In this document: positions 12,422 through 25,220 of the stretch, in pieces
How positions within the stretch are numbered: the first letter of the stretch is position 1
Layout of the letters: every line of letters starts with the position of its first letter
IMG/VR virus record: IMGVR_UViG_3300042892_004538
Location: 1 to 33,932 of that record
Source: a virus
Reading direction: 5' to 3' (one strand)
DNA: 33,932 bases
Position numbers and translations under genes: made by a program
Notes under the pieces: generated by a model
The model's input: the letters and a program-made list of their open reading frames with translations, nothing else
Told to the model about the DNA's origin: nothing
Databases searched by the model: none

Positions 12422-13437
12422 TATAGGAATCCACCGTTCTTGATGTTGTTGTTCACGTACTTGGTGGGTTGGGTGGCACCAAAGCCCGAAGCTTGACCTG
12501 CGGCACCCACACGATTGATTAGGCTACCACGAGCAAAATCTTCCAGGCTGAATCCTTGGCTTTGCGCCAGTCTGCTGTAGACCGGTTGCAGTGAAAGGCT
12601 CATCTGGCTGGTGGTTGGTAGTCTGGTGCTGTTGAGTCTGGGATTGAGTCCTTGGCTGCCTCTAGTGACACTGGGCTCAGGAATATCTACATAGTCTACA
12701 TCTGCAGGCATGGTATGACTGAAACTGGTGACCACACAAGGCACATTGGGCAGATAGTATTGACCATAACCATTGAGGTACACAATGGGTGGAGGGTTAC
12801 CAGCGGCTGGACCATAACCAAAAAACATCTTGGTACAACTGCGAAAGAAATATATTGCAGCCAACAGATACTGACCTTCATTGACGTTTTGTACTGTAAA
12901 GTCTGTGTTCAGGGTTATCGCTGACACTTCACTGTTGTCATAAAAATACTGAGTATAATTGCTGTGTGTTAGTTTCTGCGGAGTGTAACTGGCTGTGTGT
13001 GCCACTGTGATTGTGGGCGTGTAAGGAAATACCACACCTATGCGTTTGGTTCCACCTAGACCGGTTATTTGTCCCAGAGCCGCACCAATTGGGTTGTCTG
13101 AACCACCACCGCTTTCAGTGACCAACGGACTCATGAGTGCATTTCCCTGTGGGTCATTGTAAAAATACTTGCTGTTGGGAGCCAGGCTTACTCGCACACG
13201 CCAATCTGAGCTGGCATTGGGAAATGATGGAAAAACAAATCTGGGTGCAGGACCCACGGTTCTTGAACTGTATCTAAACATGTCTGCAGTATTTTGACGT
13301 GTGCTCATGCCATTGGGCGCCAGACCCACAGCACCGGTCAAACCATTGCTGATGTTTTGCCCCAGTTGTGAACCAAACGACTGCTGTGAGCCATTGAGTG
13401 GACTTCCTGGTAATTGTGCGTTGGACAAGACTGGCAT
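12421..13437 (-). CDS. Baseplate tube-cap/initiator-like protein (gp48/gp54 position)
   Basis: The 338-residue protein is the first gene of the minus-strand block. It contains WRVRVSLAPNSKYFY, GVVFPYTPTITVAHTASYTP and LPNVPCVVTSFSHTMPADVDYV, a pattern of beta strands like tail-tube or tube-initiator folds. The N- and C-terminal segments are Gly/Ser/Gln-rich. Its place beside gp53 suggests the baseplate tube-initiating gp48/gp54 role, but sequence identity to those T4 proteins cannot be seen by eye. It is preceded by a late-promoter-like motif (13458-13466) and a good Shine-Dalgarno (CAGGAAA) before ATG 13437. Confidence 0.55.
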   Translation of the reverse strand: MPVLSNAQLPGSPLNGSQQSFGSQLGQNISNGLTGAVGLAPNGMSTRQNTADMFRYSSRTVGPAPRFVFPSFPNASSDWRVRVSLAPNSKYFYNDPQGNALMSPLVTESGGGSDNPIGAALGQITGLGGTKRIGVVFPYTPTITVAHTASYTPQKLTHSNYTQYFYDNSEVSAITLNTDFTVQNVNEGQYLLAAIYFFRSCTKMFFGYGPAAGNPPPIVYLNGYGQYYLPNVPCVVTSFSHTMPADVDYVDIPEPSVTRGSQGLNPRLNSTRLPTTSQMSLSLQPVYSRLAQSQGFSLEDFARGSLINRVGAAGQASGFGATQPTKYVNNNIKNGGFL

Positions 13438-13457
13438 GTGATTTCCTGTGTTATACA

Positions 13458-13466
13458 GTATTTATT
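13458..13466 (-). promoter_or_regulatory. Late promoter-like motif for the baseplate operon
   Basis: The minus strand reads AATAAATAC. T4-type geometry puts the start near 13453, leaving a leader of about 16 bases that contains CAGGAAA before ATG 13437. This would be the head promoter of the whole minus-strand structural block. Confidence 0.6.
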
Positions 13467-13513
13467 GACATCATTAACGGCGCAGATAATGTTTTTAGTT
13501 TTTCAAAATTAGG

Positions 13514-13543: not shown

Positions 13544-13567
13544 GTGCTAACTTTAAAGGAACTAAAG

Positions 13568-14452
13568 GTGCGCCATAATTATCTCAACAACAAAGACATT
13601 CTCAAAGAAATACACAAAAGCAAGACAACCTACTGTTCATATCCCAATCCACAGGATGCAGACTATGACATTATCTTGCCCGATGTGAGCAAAATAAACA
13701 AAAAGAATATCATGCAGGGACGGCGCAATCGAGCTGAACGCCTGGCCAAATTGGCGCATGAAGCAGCCACTGTGGATGGCGTCAAACGCCGATTAGATGA
13801 ATTTGAGATCAAACTCAAAGATGTCAAAGATTCTGACGTGGTATTTAGAGTCATGACCTGGGATCATATTCCCATTGACGATGTCAAAAGTCGCAAGGCT
13901 GCTATCAAGGCCTTGGAAGAGGAAGAAGGTACTATTCCGCATTCGGAATACGACGACGATGAATTGGACTTGGCTGGTAATACCAAATATGTAAAATGCA
14001 ACTTTCCGCCGTTTCAACACTTCCGAGTCAACGAAGCTGTAGAACCGGTGTGTGTGGGCAAGAGTCACTGGAAAGGTGATTTAGAAAAAGGCGCATTCAC
14101 TCGCGAACATGGAAAAATGACCCCCAAGTTGGCCAACATGTTTATCAAGTTGTGCGAACGCTATGCCACAAGATCAAACTGGCGTGGCTACACCTACAAC
14201 GATGAAATGCGTAGCCAAGCATTACTACAGTTAAGTCAAATTGGTCTACAGTTTGATGAAGCCAAGAGTCAAAATCCCTTTGCTTATTACACTGCTGCCA
14301 TAACCAATTCGTTTACTCGGGTGCTCAACATTGAAAAACGCAATCAGAATCTGCGTGATGACATACTAGAAATGAACAACCTGACTCCCAGTTACACACG
14401 TCAAGGCATGAAAATCAGCACCGGAGGTAGTGATGGCGGCTACGACGATTGA
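13568..14452 (+). CDS. 55: Late-transcription sigma factor gp55
   Basis: The 294-residue protein matches T4 gp55, the small sigma-like factor that directs host RNA polymerase to late promoters. The N-terminus RHNYLNNKDILKEI is typical (gp55 proteins start with a YVNNK-like block). The C-terminal half has KMTPKLANMFIKLCERYATRSNW, YNDEMRSQALLQLSQIGLQFD and NPFAYYTAAITNSFTRVLNIEKR, equivalent to sigma region 2, which recognises the -10 element. GTG 13568 is chosen over GTG 13544 because AAAGGA lies seven bases ahead of it and the predicted promoter would start transcription after 13544. An acidic stretch (about residues 117-140) separates the halves. The protein is longer than T4 gp55 (about 185 residues). 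Confidence 0.9.
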   Translation: MRHNYLNNKDILKEIHKSKTTYCSYPNPQDADYDIILPDVSKINKKNIMQGRRNRAERLAKLAHEAATVDGVKRRLDEFEIKLKDVKDSDVVFRVMTWDHIPIDDVKSRKAAIKALEEEEGTIPHSEYDDDELDLAGNTKYVKCNFPPFQHFRVNEAVEPVCVGKSHWKGDLEKGAFTREHGKMTPKLANMFIKLCERYATRSNWRGYTYNDEMRSQALLQLSQIGLQFDEAKSQNPFAYYTAAITNSFTRVLNIEKRNQNLRDDILEMNNLTPSYTRQGMKISTGGSDGGYDD

Positions 14453-14464
14453 GCAAATCCTCAG

Positions 14465-14493
14465 TTGATATTAACCACATAATCCTGTATACT
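14465..14493 (+). promoter_or_regulatory. Sigma70-type promoter abutting gp47
   Basis: TTGATA (14465-14470) and TATACT (14488-14493) are separated by 17 bases. The predicted transcription start is about 14500, one base before the gp47 ATG at 14501, and no Shine-Dalgarno is visible. The message may be leaderless or nearly so. Confidence 0.6.
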
Positions 14494-14500
14494 TGAAACT

Positions 14501-15520
14501 ATGACCAACCTTTTCAAAAAGGCTGCGGTGTTCACAGACATACACTTTGGACTCAAAAGCAACAGCCAACTACACAACGAAGACTGTCTTAATTTTGTAA
14601 AATGGGCCACTGCCCGGGCAAAAGAAAACGGTTGCGAAACCGCCATGTTCCTGGGTGACTGGCACAACAATCGTGCGTCCATCAACATTGTCACGCTCAA
14701 CTACAGCCTCCGAGCCCTGGAGCATCTAAATGAAAACTTTGAGCAGACTTTCTTTATTCCTGGAAATCATGATTTGTATTATCGCGACAAGCGAGATGTA
14801 CAGAGTGTGGAATGGGCCAAGCACCTTAGTAGAATACATATCTGTAACGACTGGACCACTCATGGCGACGTTACTATTGCGCCGTGGTTGGTGGGAGACG
14901 ACTTTAAGCGTCTAAAGAAACTCAAAGGCAAGTACATGTTTGGACACTTCGAGTTGCCCGGATATTTGATGAATGCCATGGTGGCCATGCCCGATCATGG
15001 TGAAGTAGATCCCAAAAACGATTTGAAAGGGTTTGAGCATGTGTTCTCTGGGCACTTCCACAAGCGCCAGACCAAGGGCAACATCACTTACCTGGGCAAC
15101 TGTTTCCCGCACAACTATGCCGATGCCGGCGACGATGATCGCGGACTCATGATCCTGGAGTGGGGCAAAGATCCTGTGTATCATGCCTGGCCCGACCAAC
15201 CTATATATCGTGTGTTCCAACTTAGTGATGTGCTCAAACACACCGAAGTCATGCTTCGACCCAACATGCATGTGCGTGTAAATCTGGACATTGACATCAG
15301 CTACGAAGAAGCCACATTTATCAAAGAAACATTTATTGACACATACAAACTAAGAGAAATTACCTTGATTCCGGCCAAGGTAACCGACCTTACCGAATAC
15401 GAAATACAAGGCAACATAGCATTTGAGTCAGTGGATCAAATTGTGTTTGGTCAATTGAATTCGATTGAAAGCGAACAGTTTAATAAAAATCTCCTGTTGG
15501 ATATTTATAGAAATCTATGA
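14501..15520 (+). CDS. 47: Recombination endonuclease subunit gp47 (Mre11/SbcD-like)
   Basis: The 339-residue protein is the nuclease subunit that pairs with the gp46 ATPase to resect DNA ends for recombination-dependent replication. All metallophosphoesterase motifs are present: FTDIHFG (Asp13, His15), FLGDWHNNR, IPGNHDLYY, MFGHFELPG and FSGHFHKRQ, which together bind the two metal ions. Length matches T4 gp47 (about 340). The stop overlaps the next ATG by four bases (ATGA). Between gp47 and gp46, adjacent partners in function, two other genes are inserted. Confidence 0.95.
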   Translation: MTNLFKKAAVFTDIHFGLKSNSQLHNEDCLNFVKWATARAKENGCETAMFLGDWHNNRASINIVTLNYSLRALEHLNENFEQTFFIPGNHDLYYRDKRDVQSVEWAKHLSRIHICNDWTTHGDVTIAPWLVGDDFKRLKKLKGKYMFGHFELPGYLMNAMVAMPDHGEVDPKNDLKGFEHVFSGHFHKRQTKGNITYLGNCFPHNYADAGDDDRGLMILEWGKDPVYHAWPDQPIYRVFQLSDVLKHTEVMLRPNMHVRVNLDIDISYEEATFIKETFIDTYKLREITLIPAKVTDLTEYEIQGNIAFESVDQIVFGQLNSIESEQFNKNLLLDIYRNL

Positions 15521-15888
15521 CCCTGGATGAAGCCAAATCAAGTCTACTGCTACAATACCAAATCGATCATTTCATTGATTTAAAACAATTTGAGCCAGAT
15601 CTCAAAGGGCAGTTATACAACTGTTTGCGTAAGATTCGCAAGGAATCTTTTACCGATCAGGAACGTATAGTGTTTGTTGCACAACGACCCTTGATCAAAT
15701 CTTATGCCGACCAACCACACGATGTTATTTCCATGCTGGAGCAAAACATACAGCACCACGATATTGCACATTTTTTTCTCATAGTGTTGTCCAACATAGA
15801 TACCATTGCGGAAGAATTAGAATATGTGCGTGCCAAATACAATCCGCAGGAAAATATACCAATGGCACACATATTGGCGCATGAATAA
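15517..15888 (+). CDS. Small protein of unknown function in gp47-gp46 operon
   Basis: The 123-residue protein was not recognised. It looks mostly helical and soluble, with no signal peptide, membrane segment or cysteine motif. It begins MTLDEAKSSLLLQYQIDHF and ends with a charged helix (EELEYVRAKYN). It overlaps gp47 by four bases upstream and the radical SAM gene by eight bases downstream, so the three are probably translated together. The tight packing suggests a role linked to one of the neighbours, but nothing in the sequence says which. Confidence 0.75.
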   Translation: MTLDEAKSSLLLQYQIDHFIDLKQFEPDLKGQLYNCLRKIRKESFTDQERIVFVAQRPLIKSYADQPHDVISMLEQNIQHHDIAHFFLIVLSNIDTIAEELEYVRAKYNPQENIPMAHILAHE

Positions 15889-17170
15889 AGTATTTCCCAT
15901 ACACAACCAATCTGCTTGTTTGTTAAAATGGGCCTGGAGTACCATCTACTTTAATAGTGGAACCACAGCCAGCTGTCATCGCACACAAAAATATGCTATT
16001 GCCCCGAATAACTTTGATCTGTTTCATAATTTACCGGACAAAATTGCGGCCAGGAATCACATGCAACATGGAATATGGCCTGGTGCCGGGTGCGAATATT
16101 GTAAAAAAGTCGAAGATGCGGACGGACTAAGTGATAGACAAAGCACTTTACAGCAAGACAATGGGTGGCTGGTTCCGCCTGAGCTTGTCACAGACTCAAC
16201 TGCCACTGCTGTTACTCCTACCATACTAGAAGTTTATTTTAAAAATACCTGCAACATGAAGTGTGTTTACTGTGGCCCACATCATAGTAGCCTGTGGGAA
16301 GAAGAAAATAGAAAATTTGACAGTTCATTTCACAATAGAACATTTGATATCAAACAGGCGCAACACAATGATCATTATGATCAAATGGTTGCAGATTTAT
16401 GGAAGTACCTGGACAAAAATGATCGATACAAAAATATCAAACGATATCATATCTTGGGTGGCGAACCATTCTTAATGAGTGAGTTAGACGACAGCATCGA
16501 GTTTTGGCGCACTCATCCCAACCCTGATTTAATTTTTAGCATAATAACCAACTTGAACATACCTACCATAAGATTTGAACGGTATCTCTCACAGTTTAGA
16601 AAATTGGTGCTGTCCAACAAGATTTGGAAATTGCAAATCACCGCAAGCCTGGATTGCTGGGACAGTGAACAAGAATATGTACGATACGGGTTAGATTTAC
16701 AACAGTGGCAACAAAACTTTGAGCTTTTGTTGAATCAGCCCTGGATTTCTGTCAGCATCAATAGTGCCGTATCTGCGTTGACCATCAAATCCTTGCCCAA
16801 GTTGTTGCAACGTATCAATGAGTGGAACACTCAACAAACAGCAACAGCCACGTGGTTTCAACGTGAGTGGGTGGCCGAACCTATTGTTCACAGTTTTAAC
16901 ACATCAGCCGAGTTTGATAATCCATATTTCTTTGATGGTGCTGTATTTGCCAAAGACTTTGAGCGTATACTGGCGTTGATGCCGCAAGACAACACAGTGC
17001 AACAAGCTCAACATCGAGCCATGCAAGGAATTGCGACCACAAGTTTGTCATCCAAGAACAACACAGATCAAATCAATAAATTAAAACAATATCTCACAAT
17101 GCTGGACCAACGACGCAACACACATTGGCCTAGCCATTTTGCTTGGCTTGATCAAGACTTTAGTGTATAA
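15881..17170 (+). CDS. Radical SAM protein, twitch-type, between gp47 and gp46
   Basis: The 429-residue protein has the radical SAM cluster motif CNMKCVYC (Cys124, Cys128, Cys131), which binds the 4Fe-4S cluster that cleaves S-adenosylmethionine, and a downstream ILGGEPFL block (the GGEP SAM-binding motif). The N-terminus holds further cysteines (SCHRTQ, GAGCEYCKKVE) that may form an additional metal site. This arrangement resembles the 'twitch domain' radical SAM proteins common in environmental T4-like phages, whose substrate is unknown. ATG 15881 is preferred over an upstream start at 15824, which would overlap the preceding gene by 65 bases; the N-terminus MNKVFPIHNQSAC is family-like. 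The last bases contain the probable gp46 promoter. Confidence 0.82.
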   Translation: MNKVFPIHNQSACLLKWAWSTIYFNSGTTASCHRTQKYAIAPNNFDLFHNLPDKIAARNHMQHGIWPGAGCEYCKKVEDADGLSDRQSTLQQDNGWLVPPELVTDSTATAVTPTILEVYFKNTCNMKCVYCGPHHSSLWEEENRKFDSSFHNRTFDIKQAQHNDHYDQMVADLWKYLDKNDRYKNIKRYHILGGEPFLMSELDDSIEFWRTHPNPDLIFSIITNLNIPTIRFERYLSQFRKLVLSNKIWKLQITASLDCWDSEQEYVRYGLDLQQWQQNFELLLNQPWISVSINSAVSALTIKSLPKLLQRINEWNTQQTATATWFQREWVAEPIVHSFNTSAEFDNPYFFDGAVFAKDFERILALMPQDNTVQQAQHRAMQGIATTSLSSKNNTDQINKLKQYLTMLDQRRNTHWPSHFAWLDQDFSV

Positions 17171-17171
17171 T
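17143..17171 (+). promoter_or_regulatory. Sigma70-type promoter abutting gp46
   Basis: A perfect TATAAT (17166-17171) follows TTGGCT (17143-17148, four of six) after 17 bases. The predicted start near 17178 lies two bases before the gp46 ATG at 17180, with no Shine-Dalgarno. It overlaps the end of the preceding radical SAM gene. Confidence 0.5.
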
Positions 17172-17179
17172 AAGAACCT

Positions 17180-18949
17180 ATGTTTAAAATAAAAGACCTT
17201 ACTGTTAAAAACTTCATGAGTGTGGGCAACACCACACAAGCCGTGGACTTTGATCGCAAGGACCTGACCTTGGTCCTGGGCGAAAACTTGGATCTGGGTG
17301 GTGACGACTCGGGTGCCAGAAACGGCACAGGCAAAACCACCATAATCAATGCTCTCAGTTATGCTTTATACGGCACGGCCTTGACCAACATCAAGAAAGA
17401 CAACCTGATCAACAAGGCCAATCAAAAGAACATGATGACCACCATTGACTTTGAAAAAGATGGTATCACTTATCGCATTGAACGCGGTCGTAAACCCAAT
17501 GTGATGAAATTTTTTGTGGGTGATGCCGAGCAGGAAATCACCGATGACGCCCAAGGTGATTCAAGAGAAACACAGGCCGAAATAGAACGCATGCTGGGCA
17601 TGACGCACGACATGTTCAAACACATCGTAGCTCTCAACACCTATACTGAACCATTCCTGGCACTCAAGGCCAATGACCAGCGTAGCATCATTGAACAACT
17701 GCTGGGCATTACCTTGCTGAGCGAAAAAGCAGATCGACTAAAAGAAGCAAATAAAAACACCAAAGATGCCATAACCAAAGAAGAGTTCAGGATCAAGGCT
17801 GTGGGTGATGCCAACCGGCGAATCGAAGAACAAATAGAAAGTCTCAAACGCAGACAAACACTCTGGAATACCAAACATGAAGAAGAGATTGCAAAAATAC
17901 AGGCGGGACTCCAAGAACTACAGAGAATCGACATCGAGGCCGAGATTCAGGCACACCAAGCACTCAAGAATTGGGATCAGCTCCGCAAGGACCTCAATGA
18001 GCTTTCGTCGGCGATTGGTCGCACGAAACTGGACCTGGGTCGCGAAGAAAAAGCCGTTGAACGCTTATCAAAGGATATCGTGGCGTTGGAAAATCATACG
18101 TGCTCCACTTGCGGGCAAGAGTTCCATGACTCGAAGCACCAACAGGTCTTGGGATCAAAGCAGAGAGAATTGGCGGGAGCAAAATCGAATCAGGAATCGC
18201 ATGCTGCCCTCTTGGCTGAACTACAGTCGGCTCAGCTGGGGCTGGGCGACCTGGGCCTAAAACCCCAGACATTTTATCCTACAGAATCCGATGCCATACA
18301 CCATCAGGCCACTGTGACCAATTTGGAAAAACAGCTGGTATCGAAACAGGCCGAACAAGATCCTTACACTGAACAAATAGCAGAAATGCAGGAAAAAGGT
18401 GTGGAAGAAATCAGCTACGATGTCATGAACGAACTGACCAATCTTAGAGAGCACCAAGAGTTTTTGTTAAAGCTACTAACAAATAAAGATAGTTTTATTC
18501 GTAAACGCATCATCGATCAGAACCTAAGTTATTTAAATGCCCGCTTGGGACAGTACCTGGACCGTATTGGCTTACCACACACCGTTAAGTTCAACAATGA
18601 TCTTAGCGTAAGCATCACGGAACTGGGAAGAGATTTAGACTTTGACAACTTATCTCGTGGAGAACGCAACCGCTTAATTTTGTCCTTGAGCTGGAGCTTT
18701 AGAGATGTTTGGGAAAGTTTATATCAGCCTATCAACTTGTTGTTTATCGACGAGTTAGTTGACAGTGGTATGGATAGTTCAGGAGTGGAAAACGCCCTGG
18801 CTATCCTGAAAAAGATGAGTCGCGAAAGCAACAAGAGTATTTGGTTGGTTTCACACAAGGATGAACTGGCAGGACGGGTGAACAATACCTTGCACGTGGT
18901 CAAAGAAAATGGCTTTACCAGTTACAACACAGATGTTGAAATCGTATAA
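17180..18949 (+). CDS. 46: Recombination endonuclease ATPase gp46 (Rad50/SbcC-like)
   Basis: The 589-residue protein is the SMC-like ATPase partner of gp47. Walker A is GARNGTGKTT (Lys52). Two coiled-coil arms flank a zinc-hook motif CSTCGQ (Cys308, Cys311). The C-terminal part carries the ABC signature LSRGERNRL, Walker B LLFIDELVD, and a WLVSHKDEL switch-type His. Length matches T4 gp46 (about 560). ATG 17180 follows a promoter by two bases. The last 17 bases overlap the next gene in another frame. The segment from about 17880 to 18260 uses more G/C-ending codons than its surroundings, mildly suggesting a different history for the coiled-coil part. Confidence 0.95.
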   Translation: MFKIKDLTVKNFMSVGNTTQAVDFDRKDLTLVLGENLDLGGDDSGARNGTGKTTIINALSYALYGTALTNIKKDNLINKANQKNMMTTIDFEKDGITYRIERGRKPNVMKFFVGDAEQEITDDAQGDSRETQAEIERMLGMTHDMFKHIVALNTYTEPFLALKANDQRSIIEQLLGITLLSEKADRLKEANKNTKDAITKEEFRIKAVGDANRRIEEQIESLKRRQTLWNTKHEEEIAKIQAGLQELQRIDIEAEIQAHQALKNWDQLRKDLNELSSAIGRTKLDLGREEKAVERLSKDIVALENHTCSTCGQEFHDSKHQQVLGSKQRELAGAKSNQESHAALLAELQSAQLGLGDLGLKPQTFYPTESDAIHHQATVTNLEKQLVSKQAEQDPYTEQIAEMQEKGVEEISYDVMNELTNLREHQEFLLKLLTNKDSFIRKRIIDQNLSYLNARLGQYLDRIGLPHTVKFNNDLSVSITELGRDLDFDNLSRGERNRLILSLSWSFRDVWESLYQPINLLFIDELVDSGMDSSGVENALAILKKMSRESNKSIWLVSHKDELAGRVNNTLHVVKENGFTSYNTDVEIV

Positions 18950-19787
18950 AGTCCTACATATCGAACCCACAGATGTGTGTCAGGCCGCGTGTCCGTTGTG
19001 TGCTCGAGAAACTGATGTTGCATTTAATAAGAGCCGGCAACATCATTTGACTGTGGAACAAATCAAAGATTGTTTTTCAGAAGATGTTATTCACAGTCTA
19101 GACAAAATGTTCATGTGTGGCAACTACGGTGACCCTGCTGCCGGGCGCCATACTTTAGAAATATACAGATACTTTAGGTCTATCAATCCTGGCGTAGTGT
19201 TGGGCATGAATACCAACGGTGCGGTACAAGGTGCCCATTGGTGGAGTGAACTAGCTGGCATACTCAATCAGCCTCGAGACTATGTGGTGTTTAGCATAGA
19301 CGGATTAGAAGATACCAATCATATATACAGAAAAAATGTAAATTGGAATAGTATTATGGTTAATACTCAAGCGTTCATTGATGCAGGCGGGAGTGCCCAC
19401 TGGGATATGCTGGTGTATAAACATAACCAACATCAAGTTGATGCCTGCGAACAAATAGCACGTGACATGGGCTTTAAATGGTTTCGTGCCAAGGTCAGCA
19501 AGCGACCATATATTAACGGATTAGAGTTTCCTGTGGGCTGGCAAAATCCTGTGCAAGAGTCTGGTGATATTCAATGTATTGCCATAAAAGATTCAAGTGT
19601 TTATATAGATGCACAAGGCCGAGTAAGTGCGTGTTGCTGGTTGGGCAGTACGCAAACAGACTTTATTACCTTAGAGCAAGCACAGGCAACCTGGGCAACT
19701 GATCCACATCCTACTTGCCGTGCCACCTGTTCCGGCGTTAATAACAGTTTCACCAATCAGTGGCAACGTGAGGTAGAGTTATGTTAG
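18933..19787 (+). CDS. Radical SAM/SPASM-like protein, first of tandem pair
   Basis: The 284-residue protein has an N-terminal cluster motif CQAACPLC (Cys16, Cys20, Cys23). It continues with a CGNYGDPAAG segment in the place where radical SAM enzymes bind SAM, a MNTNGAV strand, and a VFSIDGL strand. The C-terminus has a SPASM-like auxiliary cluster pattern: Cys before YIDAQGRVSACCW, then CRATC. SPASM proteins often modify peptides or act in cofactor maturation; the substrate here is unknown. ATG 18933 overlaps the end of gp46 by 17 bases; a longer frame from 18909 would lengthen the overlap and adds nothing conserved. The stop overlaps the next gene by seven bases. It is a clear paralogue of its downstream neighbour. 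Confidence 0.85.
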   Translation: MLKSYKVLHIEPTDVCQAACPLCARETDVAFNKSRQHHLTVEQIKDCFSEDVIHSLDKMFMCGNYGDPAAGRHTLEIYRYFRSINPGVVLGMNTNGAVQGAHWWSELAGILNQPRDYVVFSIDGLEDTNHIYRKNVNWNSIMVNTQAFIDAGGSAHWDMLVYKHNQHQVDACEQIARDMGFKWFRAKVSKRPYINGLEFPVGWQNPVQESGDIQCIAIKDSSVYIDAQGRVSACCWLGSTQTDFITLEQAQATWATDPHPTCRATCSGVNNSFTNQWQREVELC

Positions 19788-20788
19788 CTACCTGGCACTT
19801 TCACATTGAAATAAGCTCAAAGTGTACCTTGCGTTGCCCTCGTTGTGCTAGACAAGAGGTCCCCGACACGTTGGTAAACACCGAACTAGACTTGGTGTTT
19901 TTTAAAAGAAACTTTACCGCAGAGTTTATTCTTGCAAATGTAGAAAAAATTACATTTTGTGGCGACGATGGTGATCCCATATATGCACACGATCTTATTC
20001 CCGTGATACAATATATCAAAAGTGTTAAACCTGTAGAAATTGTCGTTATCACCAATGGATCGCACAAACGAGAAACGTGGTGGTCAGAGCTGGGTAGTGT
20101 GCTAGACGACACTGACTCTGTACATTTTAGTATAGACGGTTGGGACAATGCCAGCAATAACTTGTATCGTGTCAACAGCGACTTTGACAGTATCATTAAA
20201 GGTATTGTGGGATTACGTCGCACAAGTACATGCCGGCTGGTTTGGGCCGCTATTGCATTTAAGTTCAATGAAGATCGACTTGACCACATGCAGTCAATGG
20301 CTCAACAGTTAAACATGGATACATTCCAGGTAACTCGTAGCACCAAGTTTGGTAGTGTGTATCCGGGATATGGTATCAATGATGCCCTAGAGCCCAGTGC
20401 TAAGTATGTTAGCAAGACACAGCGATTTGAACGAGAAGTCGTTGCTCTTACACAGAGAAAAGTGTACACTGAGCACAAGATTAATATCGACCTGTACAAT
20501 CAAGTCCGAAGCAACGCAGAGATTGTGCCATTATGTGAAATAGGCAATAAAGGTTTGTATATAGATGCACAGGGAAGATTATTTCCGTGTTGCTGGGTAG
20601 CCAACAGATACAGCCACAATACCGAATGGCAGGAGTTGGCCAATAAATTTAATTTAACACAACGTACACTGACAGAAGTAGTAGCAGATCCTTTTTGGGA
20701 AGCAGAGTTTAAACAGTTTCAATGGCAAGAGTGTAGGACCAAATGTGCAAAAGCCGTGGTAAATCAAGACTACGCCACAAGTTGGTAA
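19781..20788 (+). CDS. Radical SAM/SPASM-like protein, second of tandem pair
   Basis: The 335-residue protein has CTLRCPRC (Cys15, Cys19, Cys22) for the SAM-cleaving cluster, a CGDDGDPIYA segment, VVITNGSH and VHFSIDGWD strands, and a C-terminal SPASM-like set: Cys before YIDAQGRLFPCCW and then CRTKC. These elements line up in the same order as in the gene before it, and the DNA around YIDAQGR is still recognisably similar, pointing to tandem duplication. About 50 extra residues lie in the second half. It overlaps its predecessor by seven bases (ATGTTAG), so the two are probably made together and may act as a pair. The substrate is unknown. Confidence 0.85.
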   Translation: MLATWHFHIEISSKCTLRCPRCARQEVPDTLVNTELDLVFFKRNFTAEFILANVEKITFCGDDGDPIYAHDLIPVIQYIKSVKPVEIVVITNGSHKRETWWSELGSVLDDTDSVHFSIDGWDNASNNLYRVNSDFDSIIKGIVGLRRTSTCRLVWAAIAFKFNEDRLDHMQSMAQQLNMDTFQVTRSTKFGSVYPGYGINDALEPSAKYVSKTQRFEREVVALTQRKVYTEHKINIDLYNQVRSNAEIVPLCEIGNKGLYIDAQGRLFPCCWVANRYSHNTEWQELANKFNLTQRTLTEVVADPFWEAEFKQFQWQECRTKCAKAVVNQDYATSW

Positions 20789-20808
20789 CAAAGAGATAAC
20801 TACTATGC

Positions 20809-21237
20809 ATGTCATGGATTCACGAACAATCACTAGTAGAAACACTACCCGAAGACTGTGTTGGTTTTGTGTATTTGATAACAAACAAACTGACCGGTAG
20901 GAAGTATATTGGCAAAAAATTAGCAAAGTTTAGCCGGACCACTTACCGAATGGTCAAACTAAAAAATGGTAAAAAGAAACGCAAAAAGATTCGTGGTAAA
21001 ATAAATTCAGATTGGCAAACATATTATGGTTCCAGTCCAGAGTTGACAAAGGATGTGGTTGCATTGGGTATTGACAACTTTACACGTGAGATATTATATT
21101 ACTGTAAAAGCAAATCAGAATGCAGTTACATTGAAGCGAGAGAACAATTTGCTCGCAGAGTTTTAGAAACTGAAGATTATTATAACGGACACATACAGGT
21201 CCGTGTACATGGCTCACACATTATCAACAAGATTTAG
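20809..21237 (+). CDS. GIY-YIG-type endonuclease-like protein
   Basis: The 142-residue protein has a GFVYLITNKLTGRKYIGKK segment, matching the GIY...YIG core of this nuclease fold, followed by a Lys/Arg-rich insert (KNGKKKRKKIRGK), DWQTYYGSS, and a helix IEAREQFARRVL that would supply the catalytic Glu. Similar proteins are frequent in environmental T4-like phages and are often annotated as Seg-like or putative endonucleases; they may act as homing enzymes or structure-specific nucleases. ATG 20809 gives MSWIHEQSL; another ATG at 20805 is in a different frame. It closes the plus-strand block and is followed by a long gene-free, hairpin-rich stretch. Confidence 0.75.
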   Translation: MSWIHEQSLVETLPEDCVGFVYLITNKLTGRKYIGKKLAKFSRTTYRMVKLKNGKKKRKKIRGKINSDWQTYYGSSPELTKDVVALGIDNFTREILYYCKSKSECSYIEAREQFARRVLETEDYYNGHIQVRVHGSHIINKI

Positions 21238-21640
21238 CATACCCGACTCAAAGTCATTCTGCAATAAACACAAAGTTATACTCTTATTATGGAATCGCAC
21301 TCTGTTTGGTCGAGGTAGCTCGACTCCCGTTGCGTAATGGTGAGATACCCATTGTAGATGTTCTCGGGTGTGCAAGGCAAATGCTAACTTAAGGCAAAAA
21401 ATGGTCGGGGCCATGTGAAAAAGATACAACCCCAGCTTATAGGACTTGGATTTATCGTCGGGTCACTAGGGTTCCGTTGATATGTGAAGCTAGAGTAAGG
21501 GGTACCGGTCAACCGCCTCTGCGTAGGAAACTACAATCTCTTTATGATAAATGACTGCTGTCACTCAGATGATGCTCTCAAACTTTCACCGTTTATACGG
21601 TGAATTGTGACCACATAATCTAGATGATACGAAAAACAAA
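21238..21640 (+). other. Gene-free, hairpin-rich region; possible structured RNA
   Basis: About 400 bases hold no convincing protein gene on either strand. Several short perfect hairpins can be read: GTCGAG-GTAG-CTCGAC (21309-21324); AATGG...CCATT (21336-21353); GTAG-GAAA-CTAC with a GNRA tetraloop (21523-21534); TTCACCG-TTTATA-CGGTGAA (21585-21604). Longer-range pairs such as CCCG 21326-21329 with CGGG 21365-21368 are possible. The composition is richer in G than nearby genes. No tRNA, tmRNA, RNase P or known riboswitch was recognised. The strand is uncertain; the hairpins exist on both. It sits next to a GIY-YIG nuclease gene, so an intron or homing-associated remnant is one option. Confidence 0.4.
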
Positions 21641-21643
21641 CAA

Positions 21644-21679
21644 ATAAAAAAATGTTGTTGAGCGATAGCGAAAACAACA
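21644..21679 (-). terminator. Rho-independent terminator after gp51/gp26
   Basis: On the minus strand a TGTTGTT/AACAACA stem (21679-21673 with 21659-21653) is followed by a run of seven T. A second hairpin, AGACTAAC-GAA-GTTAGTCT (21679-21697), immediately precedes it and overlaps the end of the gp51-like gene. Together they would end the minus-strand gp26-gp51 transcript. Confidence 0.75.
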
Positions 21680-21696
21680 GACTAACGAAGTTAGTC

Positions 21697-21920: not shown

Positions 21921-22760
21921 TTAGGCGAAAAAATTAGCGTAGTCAAACGTGACCGGCACGTCGTATTCTTTCTGACAACCACGGCAAGCAAACTTGATGG
22001 GTCGGAGTTCGGCTGCAGTGCCCAGTTCTTTGAGTCGGTCTTGTATCTGCCGCATGATTTTGAAATCAGCTTGATTGTAAAATTCTGCGATAAATGCATT
22101 TTCTGCAACCTGTGTGCCGTCTTCGGTGGTGATGCTTTCGGTGCTGTTGACACAGATTTCAATGTTGAGATTGATTAGGCGTTGCAGATATGCATCTGTG
22201 GTGACTTTTTTGTCGTCATCAGAGATGTTGTCGTCGTTGACTGTGCGTAAGATCTGCTGTTCAGTAAAAGTGATCTGATTGGCATGATTGACCTGTTGAT
22301 AACTCTGTGGGCGTATTTTGATGCTAAGACCATCTACCTCAATTGTTGTGTTGTAGTCCGGACAGGTCAAGGAGCCTACCAGATTTCCCAGATCCATGGC
22401 AAAACTGCTTTCTTCCCGACACTCGGGGCAAACAGTATCGAGGTCCATTTGGTTTCCGTAGCTGGCTATCCTGATGTTGAGCAATACTGCATCAGCATCT
22501 ATGCTGGGCATGCGCCAGGCATCTTTGATGTTGGGGCAACAACTGTGGATCACATCAACCACGCCTTGCCCGTTGAGCAAGGCATCGGGTGTGCGTATGG
22601 TAATTTCGTCTCGAGCCGTCATTGGGTACACAGGTATTTCTCCGGATGCAGGTAATTCTAGCGTGCCTTCGGGCCAAAATTTGCCTTCGCTGGGCAATTT
22701 CATGTAAATTGCTGGCTGTCTGAAATGTTTGGACAACGGGTTTGCTGGTTTTTGATCCAT
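21921..22760 (-). CDS. 26: gp26-like baseplate hub protein
   Basis: The 279-residue protein starts MDQKPANPLSKHFRQPAIYMKLPSEGKFWPEG, the characteristic N-terminus of the protein annotated as baseplate hub subunit gp26 in marine T4-like phages. It continues with a beta segment and ITIRTPDALLNGQGVVDVI. Two CxxC pairs, CPECREE near the middle and CRGCQKEY close to the C-terminus, could together bind one zinc ion. The frame extends upstream to 22796, but ATG 22760 gives the conserved start, so it is preferred. A late-promoter-like site on the minus strand (22796-22803) would give a leader of about 30 bases. Confidence 0.72.
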   Translation of the reverse strand: MDQKPANPLSKHFRQPAIYMKLPSEGKFWPEGTLELPASGEIPVYPMTARDEITIRTPDALLNGQGVVDVIHSCCPNIKDAWRMPSIDADAVLLNIRIASYGNQMDLDTVCPECREESSFAMDLGNLVGSLTCPDYNTTIEVDGLSIKIRPQSYQQVNHANQITFTEQQILRTVNDDNISDDDKKVTTDAYLQRLINLNIEICVNSTESITTEDGTQVAENAFIAEFYNQADFKIMRQIQDRLKELGTAAELRPIKFACRGCQKEYDVPVTFDYANFFA

Positions 22761-22771
22761 GTTTTTTATCC

Positions 22772-22780
22772 CATAAATAT
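22772..22780 (+). promoter_or_regulatory. Late promoter-like motif for tape measure gene
   Basis: The plus strand reads CATAAATAT. With T4-type spacing the start is near 22785, about 30 bases ahead of ATG 22815. It lies in the short divergent gap between gp26 and the tape measure gene and is nested with a minus-strand motif. Confidence 0.45.
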
Positions 22781-22795
22781 AGTTGAATGTACACA

Positions 22796-22803
22796 TATTT
22801 ACC
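22796..22803 (-). promoter_or_regulatory. Late promoter-like motif for gp26-gp51
   Basis: The minus strand reads GGTAAATA. The predicted start is near 22790, about 30 bases ahead of the gp26 ATG at 22760. Its transcript would run across the plus-strand late motif at 22772-22780. Confidence 0.4.
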
Positions 22804-22814
22804 GGTAGAAAACC

Positions 22815-25220
22815 ATGGCAGATAATAACGAAGAAAGCATACGTCGCGAAACTGAAGCACGCGAAGCTGCGACCAAAAGCACTGTAAACACTACCAAGCA
22901 GTTGGCTGATGCTTTTGAAGATCTGATTGATCGTAATAAAAGCGCCAAGGAAAAATTTGACAGACTCAACCGAGAACTAGATACCGGTAAAAAACGTCTG
23001 GTGGACATTGGCCCTGCCCTAGAAGATCTGCAGGAAAGCATTGAAAAAACTGCAGATGCTGGAGAACGAGCTCAACTGCAAGCTCAACTTGAACAGAAAC
23101 AACAAGCAGCCAGCCGTGAACAGTATAGACGCATGGTAGTTGACAGCGGTGCTGCTATATTAGCAGCAGCTGGTAACTTTGGTGTTAATCTTACCAAGAG
23201 TGTGCTGACCAGTTATCAAAGTAACGCCAGTGCATTTCAAACTGCTGGTGATCTTGTCAATGTTGGCATAGACAGCGCCTCACAGGGATTCAAGGGCATA
23301 GCCAATGCTGCGTCGGTGGCCGGTGGCGGTCTCATGTTCCTGGGACCTAAGGGTGTGGCAGCCGGCTTGGCCCTGCAGGGCCTGGCAGTTGGTATCAATT
23401 TCCTTACTGATAAATTCTCAGATCTGGCCAAGTTTGGTATCAACGTTGCAGTCAAAGAATTAGAAACACAGACCAAGGCCTTTGCAGCTGCCAGTGCAGT
23501 GGGAGCCTTGTTCAGTCAAGGCATGGGCGAAATGCGTCGCACCGCAACTCTAGCGGGACTCACACAAGAACAGTTTGCTAAAGTCACATCAGAAAATGCT
23601 GAAACTTTTGCTCGATTTGGTGGCACAGTGGGTCTTGGTGCACAGAGGTTTGCTCAAATTAGCAAAGAGATGGGCAAATATCAAACTGGTCTGATCAAAC
23701 TGGGTTACAGCATAGAAGAAATTGCCGACGGCACAGCACAGTTCATGTCCCTGCAGGCCGCATCCGGGCGAGGTCAACGCACAGATTATGCTAATCTTGC
23801 CAAAGAGACCGAAGCGTACCTAACCAATCTAAGAGTTATCTCGGCCTTTACTGGTGAAGACGCCAAAAAAGCACAGGCCAGAGCTAGAGAGGCCAGCACA
23901 CAATTGGCCATTGATCAGCGAATAAGAACCATGGAAGCCCAGGGAGACACTGAAGCAAGACAGCGTTTTGAAGATCAAGTCAAGTTGTTGCCCGAGCCAC
24001 TGAAAAAAGCATTCCAGCAAATGTTTGAATTTGGTACCATAACAGATCCAGCTCTGGCTGCTGCCGTGATGAACAATCGTGAAGCCATGGAACTGTTGAC
24101 TTTATCAGTTCAAAATGCCAAAGATAAAAATGTCAGCGCCGCTGAAGCAGTGGCCAGATTCCAACAAAATCAAAACAGGCTACAAGAATCTGCTTTTAAA
24201 AACAATAAAGATTTTAATACAGCATTGGGTCAAAGTACATTAGGTATTGGTGCCAATGCAGAAATTACAGCGGTTGCTGCTGCATCTAACGAGTTGTTTA
24301 AGAAACGTATGGATTTGAGTGCCAGAACTGCCACAGAAACAGCCGACGATCAAAAGAAGACTTCTGATACACTCAGTGTAGCCACAGCAGATGCTGTAAA
24401 ATCCATGCAGGATCTGAGAATACAGATACAAGAAAAACTCACCGGCGCTATCACAAATTTTGCGAACTTTATTCCAGATATTATCAAGGGCATAGATGAT
24501 GCACTACGAAAAGCTGGAATTTTTCTCACAAAATCGGGCACAGGTGATACAAATACAGGCATTCCAGGAACCAATATAGAATTTGGCGGCGGAGGCGAGA
24601 CAGGTGCCAAAGCCACCCCGGGAACTGATACTGAAATCATGGCCGCTCGTAGATCAGTGGCTAAACAACAAGTAGCTGATCTTGGAACTAAAGGACTCAA
24701 GCTCAAAAGTGAAGAAGCCGTAGCCGGTGGACCAGTTACCACGCCACTGATGGAACTGGCCTATCTGATTCAAAACAACTTAGGCGCTAATCTCAAATAT
24801 TTCAGTGGTCTCAATGACACCGGAAGAGATGCTAATTCCAAGCACAAATCTGGTACAGCACTGGATGTGGTTCTGACCGATCCTCTCAAGTATGAAAGCA
24901 CTTTGGCAATGATCAAAGATTTGCCTGGAGTTTCTTTTGCACAGTTTGAGCAAAAAGGGCAAAAGAATGCCAATGGTAGTGTGGCCACAGGCGATCACAT
25001 ACACGCCGAAGTCAAAGCTGCACAAGGTGCCATCATATCGGCCAGCACAGGTGGCACCAATGTAACAGTAGGCGAAGGTGGCGCCAGCGAAGTGATTGCA
25101 CCACTCAAAAACGGACGCTTGCCCGGCATGGATGAAATGATCGAACGACTAGATCAAATGATTTTGGTTATGAAAGATCACAGAGACACTTCGGAAAAGA
25201 TCTTCAACGCTACAGCCTAA
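22815..25220 (+). CDS. Tape measure protein with M15-like peptidase domain
   Basis: The 801-residue protein looks like a tail tape measure protein. Residues about 1-110 are charged coiled coil, about 110-240 are Ala/Gly-rich and hydrophobic (AAILAAAGNFGVNL, AASVAGGGLMFLGPKGVAAGLAL), and the middle is long helical repeat-like sequence. Near the C-terminus a peptidase pattern appears: SKHKSGTALD (His677, Asp684) followed by GDHIHAEV (His728, His730), the zinc-ligand signature SxHxxGxAxD...HxH of M15/VanY-type peptidoglycan peptidases. The last part (GGASEVIAPLKNGRLPGM, ERLDQMILVMKDH) resembles tape-measure C-termini. It replaces T4 gp29 in this position. The peptidase would act on cell-wall peptides during DNA entry. 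It is read from ATG 22815 after a late-promoter-like motif. Confidence 0.8.
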   Translation: MADNNEESIRRETEAREAATKSTVNTTKQLADAFEDLIDRNKSAKEKFDRLNRELDTGKKRLVDIGPALEDLQESIEKTADAGERAQLQAQLEQKQQAASREQYRRMVVDSGAAILAAAGNFGVNLTKSVLTSYQSNASAFQTAGDLVNVGIDSASQGFKGIANAASVAGGGLMFLGPKGVAAGLALQGLAVGINFLTDKFSDLAKFGINVAVKELETQTKAFAAASAVGALFSQGMGEMRRTATLAGLTQEQFAKVTSENAETFARFGGTVGLGAQRFAQISKEMGKYQTGLIKLGYSIEEIADGTAQFMSLQAASGRGQRTDYANLAKETEAYLTNLRVISAFTGEDAKKAQARAREASTQLAIDQRIRTMEAQGDTEARQRFEDQVKLLPEPLKKAFQQMFEFGTITDPALAAAVMNNREAMELLTLSVQNAKDKNVSAAEAVARFQQNQNRLQESAFKNNKDFNTALGQSTLGIGANAEITAVAAASNELFKKRMDLSARTATETADDQKKTSDTLSVATADAVKSMQDLRIQIQEKLTGAITNFANFIPDIIKGIDDALRKAGIFLTKSGTGDTNTGIPGTNIEFGGGGETGAKATPGTDTEIMAARRSVAKQQVADLGTKGLKLKSEEAVAGGPVTTPLMELAYLIQNNLGANLKYFSGLNDTGRDANSKHKSGTALDVVLTDPLKYESTLAMIKDLPGVSFAQFEQKGQKNANGSVATGDHIHAEVKAAQGAIISASTGGTNVTVGEGGASEVIAPLKNGRLPGMDEMIERLDQMILVMKDHRDTSEKIFNATA

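Follow-up and report, generated by a model that had tools for sequence, protein, structure and literature searches.

Radical SAM genes in the recombination operon of an uncultured giant-phage lineage form two independent cargo cassettes

Why should three radical S-adenosylmethionine (SAM) enzymes be encoded within the operon of a phage recombination nuclease, and do they act together? The question is raised by IMG/VR record IMGVR_UViG_3300042892_004538, a stretch of 33,932 bases from an uncultured giant-phage lineage, referred to here as the window. An initial annotation, made from the letters alone, had placed one twitch-type and two SPASM-like radical SAM genes at 15881–20788, around the gene for the recombination protein gp46, and had read them as a single multi-step pathway. 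Our analysis recovered all three open reading frames at those positions with matching families, and showed that they are real genes under selection rather than chance frames. The proposed pathway did not hold: the trio consists of two independent cargo cassettes, the twitch gene on the one hand and a pair of genes, rS2 and rS3, on the other.

These genes belong to a conserved block at 13544–21237, encoded entirely on the plus strand, in which the order sigma factor, gp47, gp46 and segE is kept in most relatives. The block contains the following features:

13544–14452, plus strand: late sigma factor, gp55-like (phrog_12791, E = 7.5e-78), the left edge of the conserved block
14501–15520, plus strand: gp47, the SbcD/Mre11-like nuclease subunit (phrog_100, E = 2e-61; PF00149 over cut-off)
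15517–15888, plus strand: 123-residue protein of no assigned family, with orthologues in the relatives G001 and G011
15881–17170, plus strand: twitch-type radical SAM enzyme (NF033640 over cut-off), cassette 1, in the gp47–gp46 slot
17180–18949, plus strand: gp46, the SbcC/Rad50-like ATPase (phrog_77, E = 1.2e-101)
18933–19787, plus strand: rS2, a short radical SAM enzyme (PF04055 over cut-off), cassette 2, in the gp46–segE slot
19781–20788, plus strand: rS3, a SPASM/twitch-like radical SAM enzyme (PF13186 over cut-off; fold modelled)
20809–21237, plus strand: SegE-type GIY-YIG protein (PF19835, E = 1.7e-32), the right edge of the second slot

The two cassettes can be told apart in two giant relatives that are collinear with the whole window, G001 (288,815 bases) and G011 (356,865 bases). 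G001, in which most neighbouring genes are 85–95% identical to those of the window, carries the 123-residue gene, gp46, rS2 and rS3 and lacks the twitch gene; G011 carries the 123-residue gene, the twitch gene and gp46, followed directly by segE, and lacks the rS2/rS3 pair. The junctions are clean: the segE leader (...ATAACTACTATGCATGTCATGGATTCACGAA) does not differ between genomes that carry the pair and those that lack it, and the start of gp46 is unchanged whether the twitch gene is present or absent. The 123-residue protein is 47% identical to its counterpart in G001, without the twitch gene, and 57% identical in G011, with it.

A gene-neighbourhood survey of relatives gave the same answer on a larger scale. 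Relatives of rS2, rS3 and gp47 are encoded in hundreds of viral contigs, and a search with the twitch gene gave 16. The gp46–segE gap could be read at 139 distinct gp46 loci, of which 53 encoded both rS2 and rS3, 29 rS2 only, 33 rS3 only and 24 neither, and all three radical SAM genes stood together in five. A subset of 48 distinct contigs had been fetched with gp47, and thus was not selected for radical SAM genes; as the best matches to the gp47 of the window, these contigs are valid for this lineage only. Four of them held both members of the pair, 14 rS2 only, 10 rS3 only and 20 neither, so that carriage of rS2 is independent of carriage of rS3 (Fisher odds ratio 0.57, p = 0.52), and none of the 48 held all three genes. 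On a gp46 tree, the presence of rS2 and rS3 required 39 and 38 changes, respectively, where shuffling gave 43.9 and 42.7 on average, and is therefore scattered almost like shuffled labels. The congruence of sequence distances with gp46 was 0.42 for rS2, 0.46 for rS3 and 0.53 for gp47. By these comparisons, the presence of rS2 and rS3 turns over while their sequences broadly follow the lineage.

Both gaps of the operon hold varied contents in relatives, with zero to four foreign genes between gp47 and gp46 and zero to five between gp46 and segE. These are chiefly radical SAM genes, together with genes that we named by eye rather than by profile, including short-chain reductases, GDSL hydrolases, adenylate-forming ligases, a Rieske oxygenase, a sulfotransferase and an amidinotransferase. 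Since the contents vary between conserved phage genes, gp47–gp46 and gp46–segE are cargo slots, and this arrangement would be consistent with exchange by homologous recombination. Across seven giant genomes described below, only one other orthogroup, a 233-residue protein that is GDSL-like by eye, matches the presence pattern of rS2 and rS3, and seven genomes are too few for this match to count. A bacterial origin of the pair was also considered and rejected, as just five contigs were returned when about 85,000 species were scanned. One of these five, from a Pacearchaeota bin (45%), has its match among genes that resemble those of the jumbo phages, and may itself be a phage contig.

For the 291- and 801-residue genes beside segE (window 21921–25220), identity is 79% and 63% to G001 but only 49% and 34% to G011, although the majority of the other flanking genes show similar identity to the two relatives. 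A recombination break adjoining the cassette slot is likely at this position.

The frames of the operon overlap by 4 bases between gp47 and the 123-residue gene, 8 between the latter and the twitch gene, 17 between gp46 and rS2 (ATG at 18933) and 7 between rS2 and rS3, with the gp46 start standing 9 bases past the twitch stop codon; the four overlaps agree exactly with the initial annotation, which had left the gp46 start uncoupled. An alternative rS2 ATG lies upstream at 18909 and would lengthen the overlap with gp46 to 41 bases. We consider 18933 the better start because in the nearest relative the rS2 frame begins with TTG, at the stop of gp46. If the genes share a transcript and are coupled, as their overlaps suggest, the enzymes would be expressed whenever gp47 and gp46 are. 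Profile searches with the 123-residue protein gave no family match of note, and no tRNA or other known RNA was found in the window, including the roughly 450 bases (21238–21696) that separate segE from the next notable gene on the minus strand, where neither Rfam nor tRNA searches gave a match.

What kind of enzymes do the cassettes carry? PF04055 was matched three times in the window record, at 30.1 bits for rS2 (cut-off 29.5) and below the cut-off for rS3 (22.0 bits), which in turn just passed the SPASM profile PF13186 (21.9 against 21.5). The twitch gene scored 199.7 bits over residues 10–422 against NF033640, "twitch domain-containing radical SAM protein" (cut-off 170), a model whose name gives no function; rS2 remained under that cut-off at 24.7 bits, and rS3 was not listed there. 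The radical SAM motif reads CNMKCVYC in the twitch protein (residues 124–131), CQAACPLC in rS2 and CTLRCPRC in rS3. The last two, which are distant homologues (25% identity across 275 alignment columns), share a CG..GDP stretch, at the place of which the twitch protein has GGEP.

Alignments of relatives comprising 22 twitch, 53 rS2 and 41 rS3 sequences showed the CX3CX2C cysteines to be invariant. The same holds for the auxiliary cysteines, namely C13, C32, C71 and C74 in a four-cysteine N-terminal cluster site of the twitch protein; C223, C242, C243, C270 and C274 in a four- to five-cysteine C-terminal site of rS2 (numbered from the start at 18909); and C252, C270, C318 and C322 in rS3. The initial annotation had named two findings that would speak against a conserved set, independent carriage of the genes at unrelated loci and loss of cluster residues in relatives: the first was observed in part, and the second was not. 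Full SPASM proteins, with two auxiliary clusters, carry a seven-cysteine C-terminal signature. As the invariant C-terminal cysteines number four in rS3 and five in rS2, a single auxiliary cluster seems the likelier state for both. The ratio of nonsynonymous to synonymous substitution rates against the nearest relative was 0.14 for rS2, 0.08 for rS3 and 0.05 for the twitch gene, against 0.08 for gp46, which shows that the function of all three genes has been kept.

Radical SAM chemistry is assigned here from knowledge of the family. The [4Fe-4S] cluster held by the CX3CX2C motif would cleave SAM to yield methionine and a 5'-deoxyadenosyl radical, which would take a hydrogen from the substrate, and a second cluster, in the N-terminal domain of the twitch protein or the C-terminal domain of rS2 and rS3, would bind the substrate or accept an electron.

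Structures of rS3 and the twitch protein were predicted with AlphaFold2 on alignments (predicted local distance difference test scores of 91 and 86, respectively). The best match of the rS3 model was SuiB (Z = 18.9, 262 residues at 3.3 Å), nearly equalled by BlsE, DesII, anSME, MoaA and SkfB (Z = 17–18); that of the twitch model was SkfB (Z = 12.2, 225 residues at 4.1 Å). The rS3 protein is thus modelled as a radical SAM fold with a SPASM/twitch-like tail, a fold that implies no substrate. Assignment of function by fold was accordingly rejected, with peptide, sugar and nucleotide enzymes at similar Z around rS3 and a twitch model that is no more specific. By sequence, the search for relatives in the Protein Data Bank gave only weak viperin matches for rS3 and none for rS2, and all three enzymes scored far under the cut-offs of the MoaA, QueE, NrdG and peptide-maturase equivalog profiles.

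The wider genomes place these cassettes in a larger kit. Among 22 records of 107–357 kb we counted 1–21 PF04055 genes each, and the seven records of at least 288 kb (288–357 kb; G001, G003, G005, G007, G009, G011 and G016, read in overlapping pieces) carry 12–21 each. The radical SAM genes of these seven genomes can be sorted into roughly a dozen and a half shared groups, with singletons besides. Two features are present in all seven:

G001 186077–194444 and G011 318202–324752, with matching places in G003, G005, G007, G009 and G016: array of five twitch-type radical SAM genes
G001 12844–13495 and 96871–97173, with equivalents in the six other genomes: IscU and two A-type iron-sulfur carriers

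The five-gene array adjoins, each time, an uncharacterised 361-residue protein, and a NodU-type carbamoyltransferase, scoring well above the cut-offs of PF02543 and PF16861, lies close by; the twitch gene of the window is a paralogue of two of its members. If these phages do run a multi-step pathway, which is plausible, its conserved core is this array and not the trio of the window. The IscU match of G016 is split over two adjacent stretches (258224–258602), and no clear cysteine desulfurase was found in the seven genomes. With IscU and both carriers encoded throughout, these phages bring their own iron-sulfur scaffold and carrier genes, as Nishimura et al. observed for other phages rich in radical SAM genes (PMC5332604). 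An amidinotransferase-like orthologue is likewise found in all seven, and a second such group in four, where all four members lie at most four genes from a radical SAM gene.

Similar sets of genes surround the closest relatives of rS3 known from cultured phages. Among 50,697 phage records, rS3 matched only radical SAM genes of the Campylobacter phages CP220 and F379 (22% identity) and one gene of the pelagiphage Mosig (26%). The CP220 gene lies in an island of five radical SAM genes with a pentein-fold amidinotransferase and two proteins resembling nucleotide-diphospho-sugar transferases, and the Mosig gene lies beside MoaA-like genes, an ArnB-like aminotransferase, a carbamoyltransferase, Asp hydroxylases and a desaturase. 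The CP220 amidinotransferase has homologues among such proteins of the jumbo phages (pairwise E = 2e-12 and 6e-18). In addition, a Bdellovibrionia contig of 916 kb encodes an rS3-like protein, three twitch-like radical SAM proteins, an Asp hydroxylase and an amidinotransferase-like protein (E = 6e-27 to that of CP220), in a cluster (L283, 6207–15931, and L284) that also holds other proteins found in jumbo phages. Similar radical SAM ensembles are thus found in three groups of phages and in one bacterium.

A further radical SAM enzyme of the kit, outside the window, may provide the most interesting result of this study. It is encoded in the following pair:

G001 73908–76283 (L248, 16908–19280; relatives L374–L416): SPASM radical SAM gene and gene for a cysteine-rich protein

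In G001 and G011, a 484-residue SPASM enzyme, encoded at 73908–75362 in G001, stands upstream of a 302-residue protein with 18 cysteines, located mostly in runs rich in asparagine and cysteine. The enzyme passes the SPASM model TIGR04085 and resembles PapB and ranthipeptide maturases (E = 4.7e-24, far under the cut-off of that equivalog). Its partner family comprises proteins of 280–334 residues with 16–25 cysteines and a core rich in cysteine and asparagine (NCNCGNIQCTNC...NCNCACNCSKIIC in the protein of about 300 residues). Among viral contigs, not all of them independent, 43 loci encode the cysteine-rich protein, and the cognate radical SAM gene was present in all 42 with upstream DNA, the 43rd starting at a contig end. 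The distance between the two genes was at most 67 bases in 34 of these 42 loci, and at most 1.5 kb in the other eight. Proteins sharing the C-terminal domain alone lack the asparagine- and cysteine-rich core and had no detectable radical SAM gene within the fetched flanks. We regard the pair as a candidate for modification of a phage protein in the manner of ribosomally synthesized and post-translationally modified peptides, and the cysteine-rich protein is the most testable radical SAM substrate in this lineage. Downstream of it (G001 76280–80476; L249, 280–4476) are genes for two 2-oxoglutarate/Fe(II) oxygenases (PF13759) and an Asp/Arg hydroxylase (PF05118).

What, then, could the cassettes of the window act upon? 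Our preferred reading, held tentatively and at somewhat less than even confidence, is that they are working cargo enzymes, each in its own slot, that belong to a kit of 12–21 radical SAM enzymes served by phage-encoded IscU and A-type carriers. The work of this kit would be the tailoring of a glycan or some other small molecule, in concert with carbamoyl-, amidino- and aminotransferases, GDSL-type proteins and Fe(II) oxygenases. We infer this substrate class from the recurrent partner genes: the nearest cultured-phage relatives of rS3 stand in islands with an amidinotransferase and nucleotide-sugar transferases (CP220) or amino- and carbamoyltransferases (Mosig), and the amidinotransferase-like proteins of jumbo phages and Bdellovibrionia match that of CP220. 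Several observations weigh against it. No sugar- or small-molecule-specific enzyme adjoins the three genes in the window; the fold of rS3 ties the peptide modifiers SuiB, SkfB and anSME with the small-molecule enzymes BlsE, DesII and MoaA, so that structure does not choose the substrate; and at least one radical SAM enzyme of these phages resembles a peptide maturase with a cysteine-rich partner. The last point, together with SuiB as best fold match of rS3 and SkfB, anSME and ChlB close behind, speaks for modification of phage or host proteins or peptides, for instance a virion protein. We consider this possible but unlikely, since no precursor-peptide or cysteine-rich gene was seen beside rS2, rS3 or the twitch gene, all scores lie far under every peptide-maturase cut-off, and small-molecule enzymes reach equal fold scores. 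Its more specific form, in which the lineage modifies its own proteins, the maturase and the cysteine-rich protein being an obligate pair and rS2, rS3 and the twitch enzyme parts of the same protein-modifying kit, appears slightly less likely still.

Modification of nucleic acid, either phage DNA bases or tRNA, is improbable. The genes sit among recombination genes, a location that says little because the slots carry unrelated cargo in relatives; viperin and TYW1, nucleotide and tRNA enzymes, are among the fold neighbours; and G001 encodes, at about 154255–155810, genes resembling QueD and QueE by eye and a possible 7-deazaguanine pathway. However, the three enzymes fall under all QueE, NrdG, MoaA and viperin equivalog cut-offs. 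A single early pathway tied to recombination, with three consecutive steps on one substrate, is suggested by the adjacent, overlapping and same-strand genes of the window, but is largely refuted by natural genomes carrying each cassette without the other and by the independence of the pair members, and we hold it to be very improbable. Least probable of all are viperin-like enzymes making chain-terminating nucleotides for attack or counter-defence: the twitch protein and rS3 show weak similarity to pVip profiles, and viperin is among the fold neighbours, but the similarity runs mainly over the shared radical SAM core, and NF038283 gives only 27.2 and 25.5 bits, respectively, against a cut-off of 180. 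Tailoring of a glycan or small molecule remains the reading that we prefer.

Phages with multiple radical SAM genes have been published since 2010 (PMC2853527), and the initial annotation, which had referred to single genes in environmental T4-like phages, was too modest in this respect. The T4-like Campylobacter phages CP220 and CPt10 carry 11 and 12 such genes, in a module that its authors called exchangeable and probably non-essential (PMC2853527), which fits the cassette behaviour observed here. They resemble the present phages in combining several radical SAM genes with an amidinotransferase in one exchangeable module, and a CP220 enzyme counts among the closest matches to rS3 in cultured phages. 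On the other hand, the window has two small cassettes inside the gp47–gp46 operon, with no amidinotransferase in that operon and only gp47, gp46, segE and the 123-residue gene as neighbours; the sequences are very distant, and the present genomes reach twice the size and as many as 21 radical SAM genes. The combination of several radical SAM genes with an amidinotransferase-like protein is found when whole genomes of the relatives are considered.

Other known systems share parts of this arrangement. The T4-like marine genome TARA_ERS488813_N000010 (183 kb) carries 12 radical SAM genes and an A-type carrier, similar to the giant relatives, and the pertinent section of the study by Nishimura et al. 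mentions no recombination-operon cassettes; IscU is present in some other T4-like genomes of that study (PMC5332604). In pelagimyophages, radical SAM cassettes vary between related genomes within a hypervariable region (PMC7029224). Mosig EXVC030M likewise joins radical SAM genes with a carbamoyltransferase, but in a single island near the tail-fibre gene, with a distant match to rS2 and rS3 (25–26% identity). The Aeromonas giant phage 332-Vera likewise has eight radical SAM genes (PMC12390700), but it belongs to Chimallinviridae and the genes lie in its structural cluster. The habit of carrying a dozen such genes, noted since 2010 without explanation, is shown here to be widespread in uncultured giant phages. 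Our study names a conserved core array and separates it from exchangeable cassettes, shows that such giant phages also carry iron-sulfur scaffold and carrier genes, and offers a candidate pair of enzyme and substrate that makes phage use of radical SAM chemistry directly testable. The phages described here are a variation on these known multi-radical-SAM phages.

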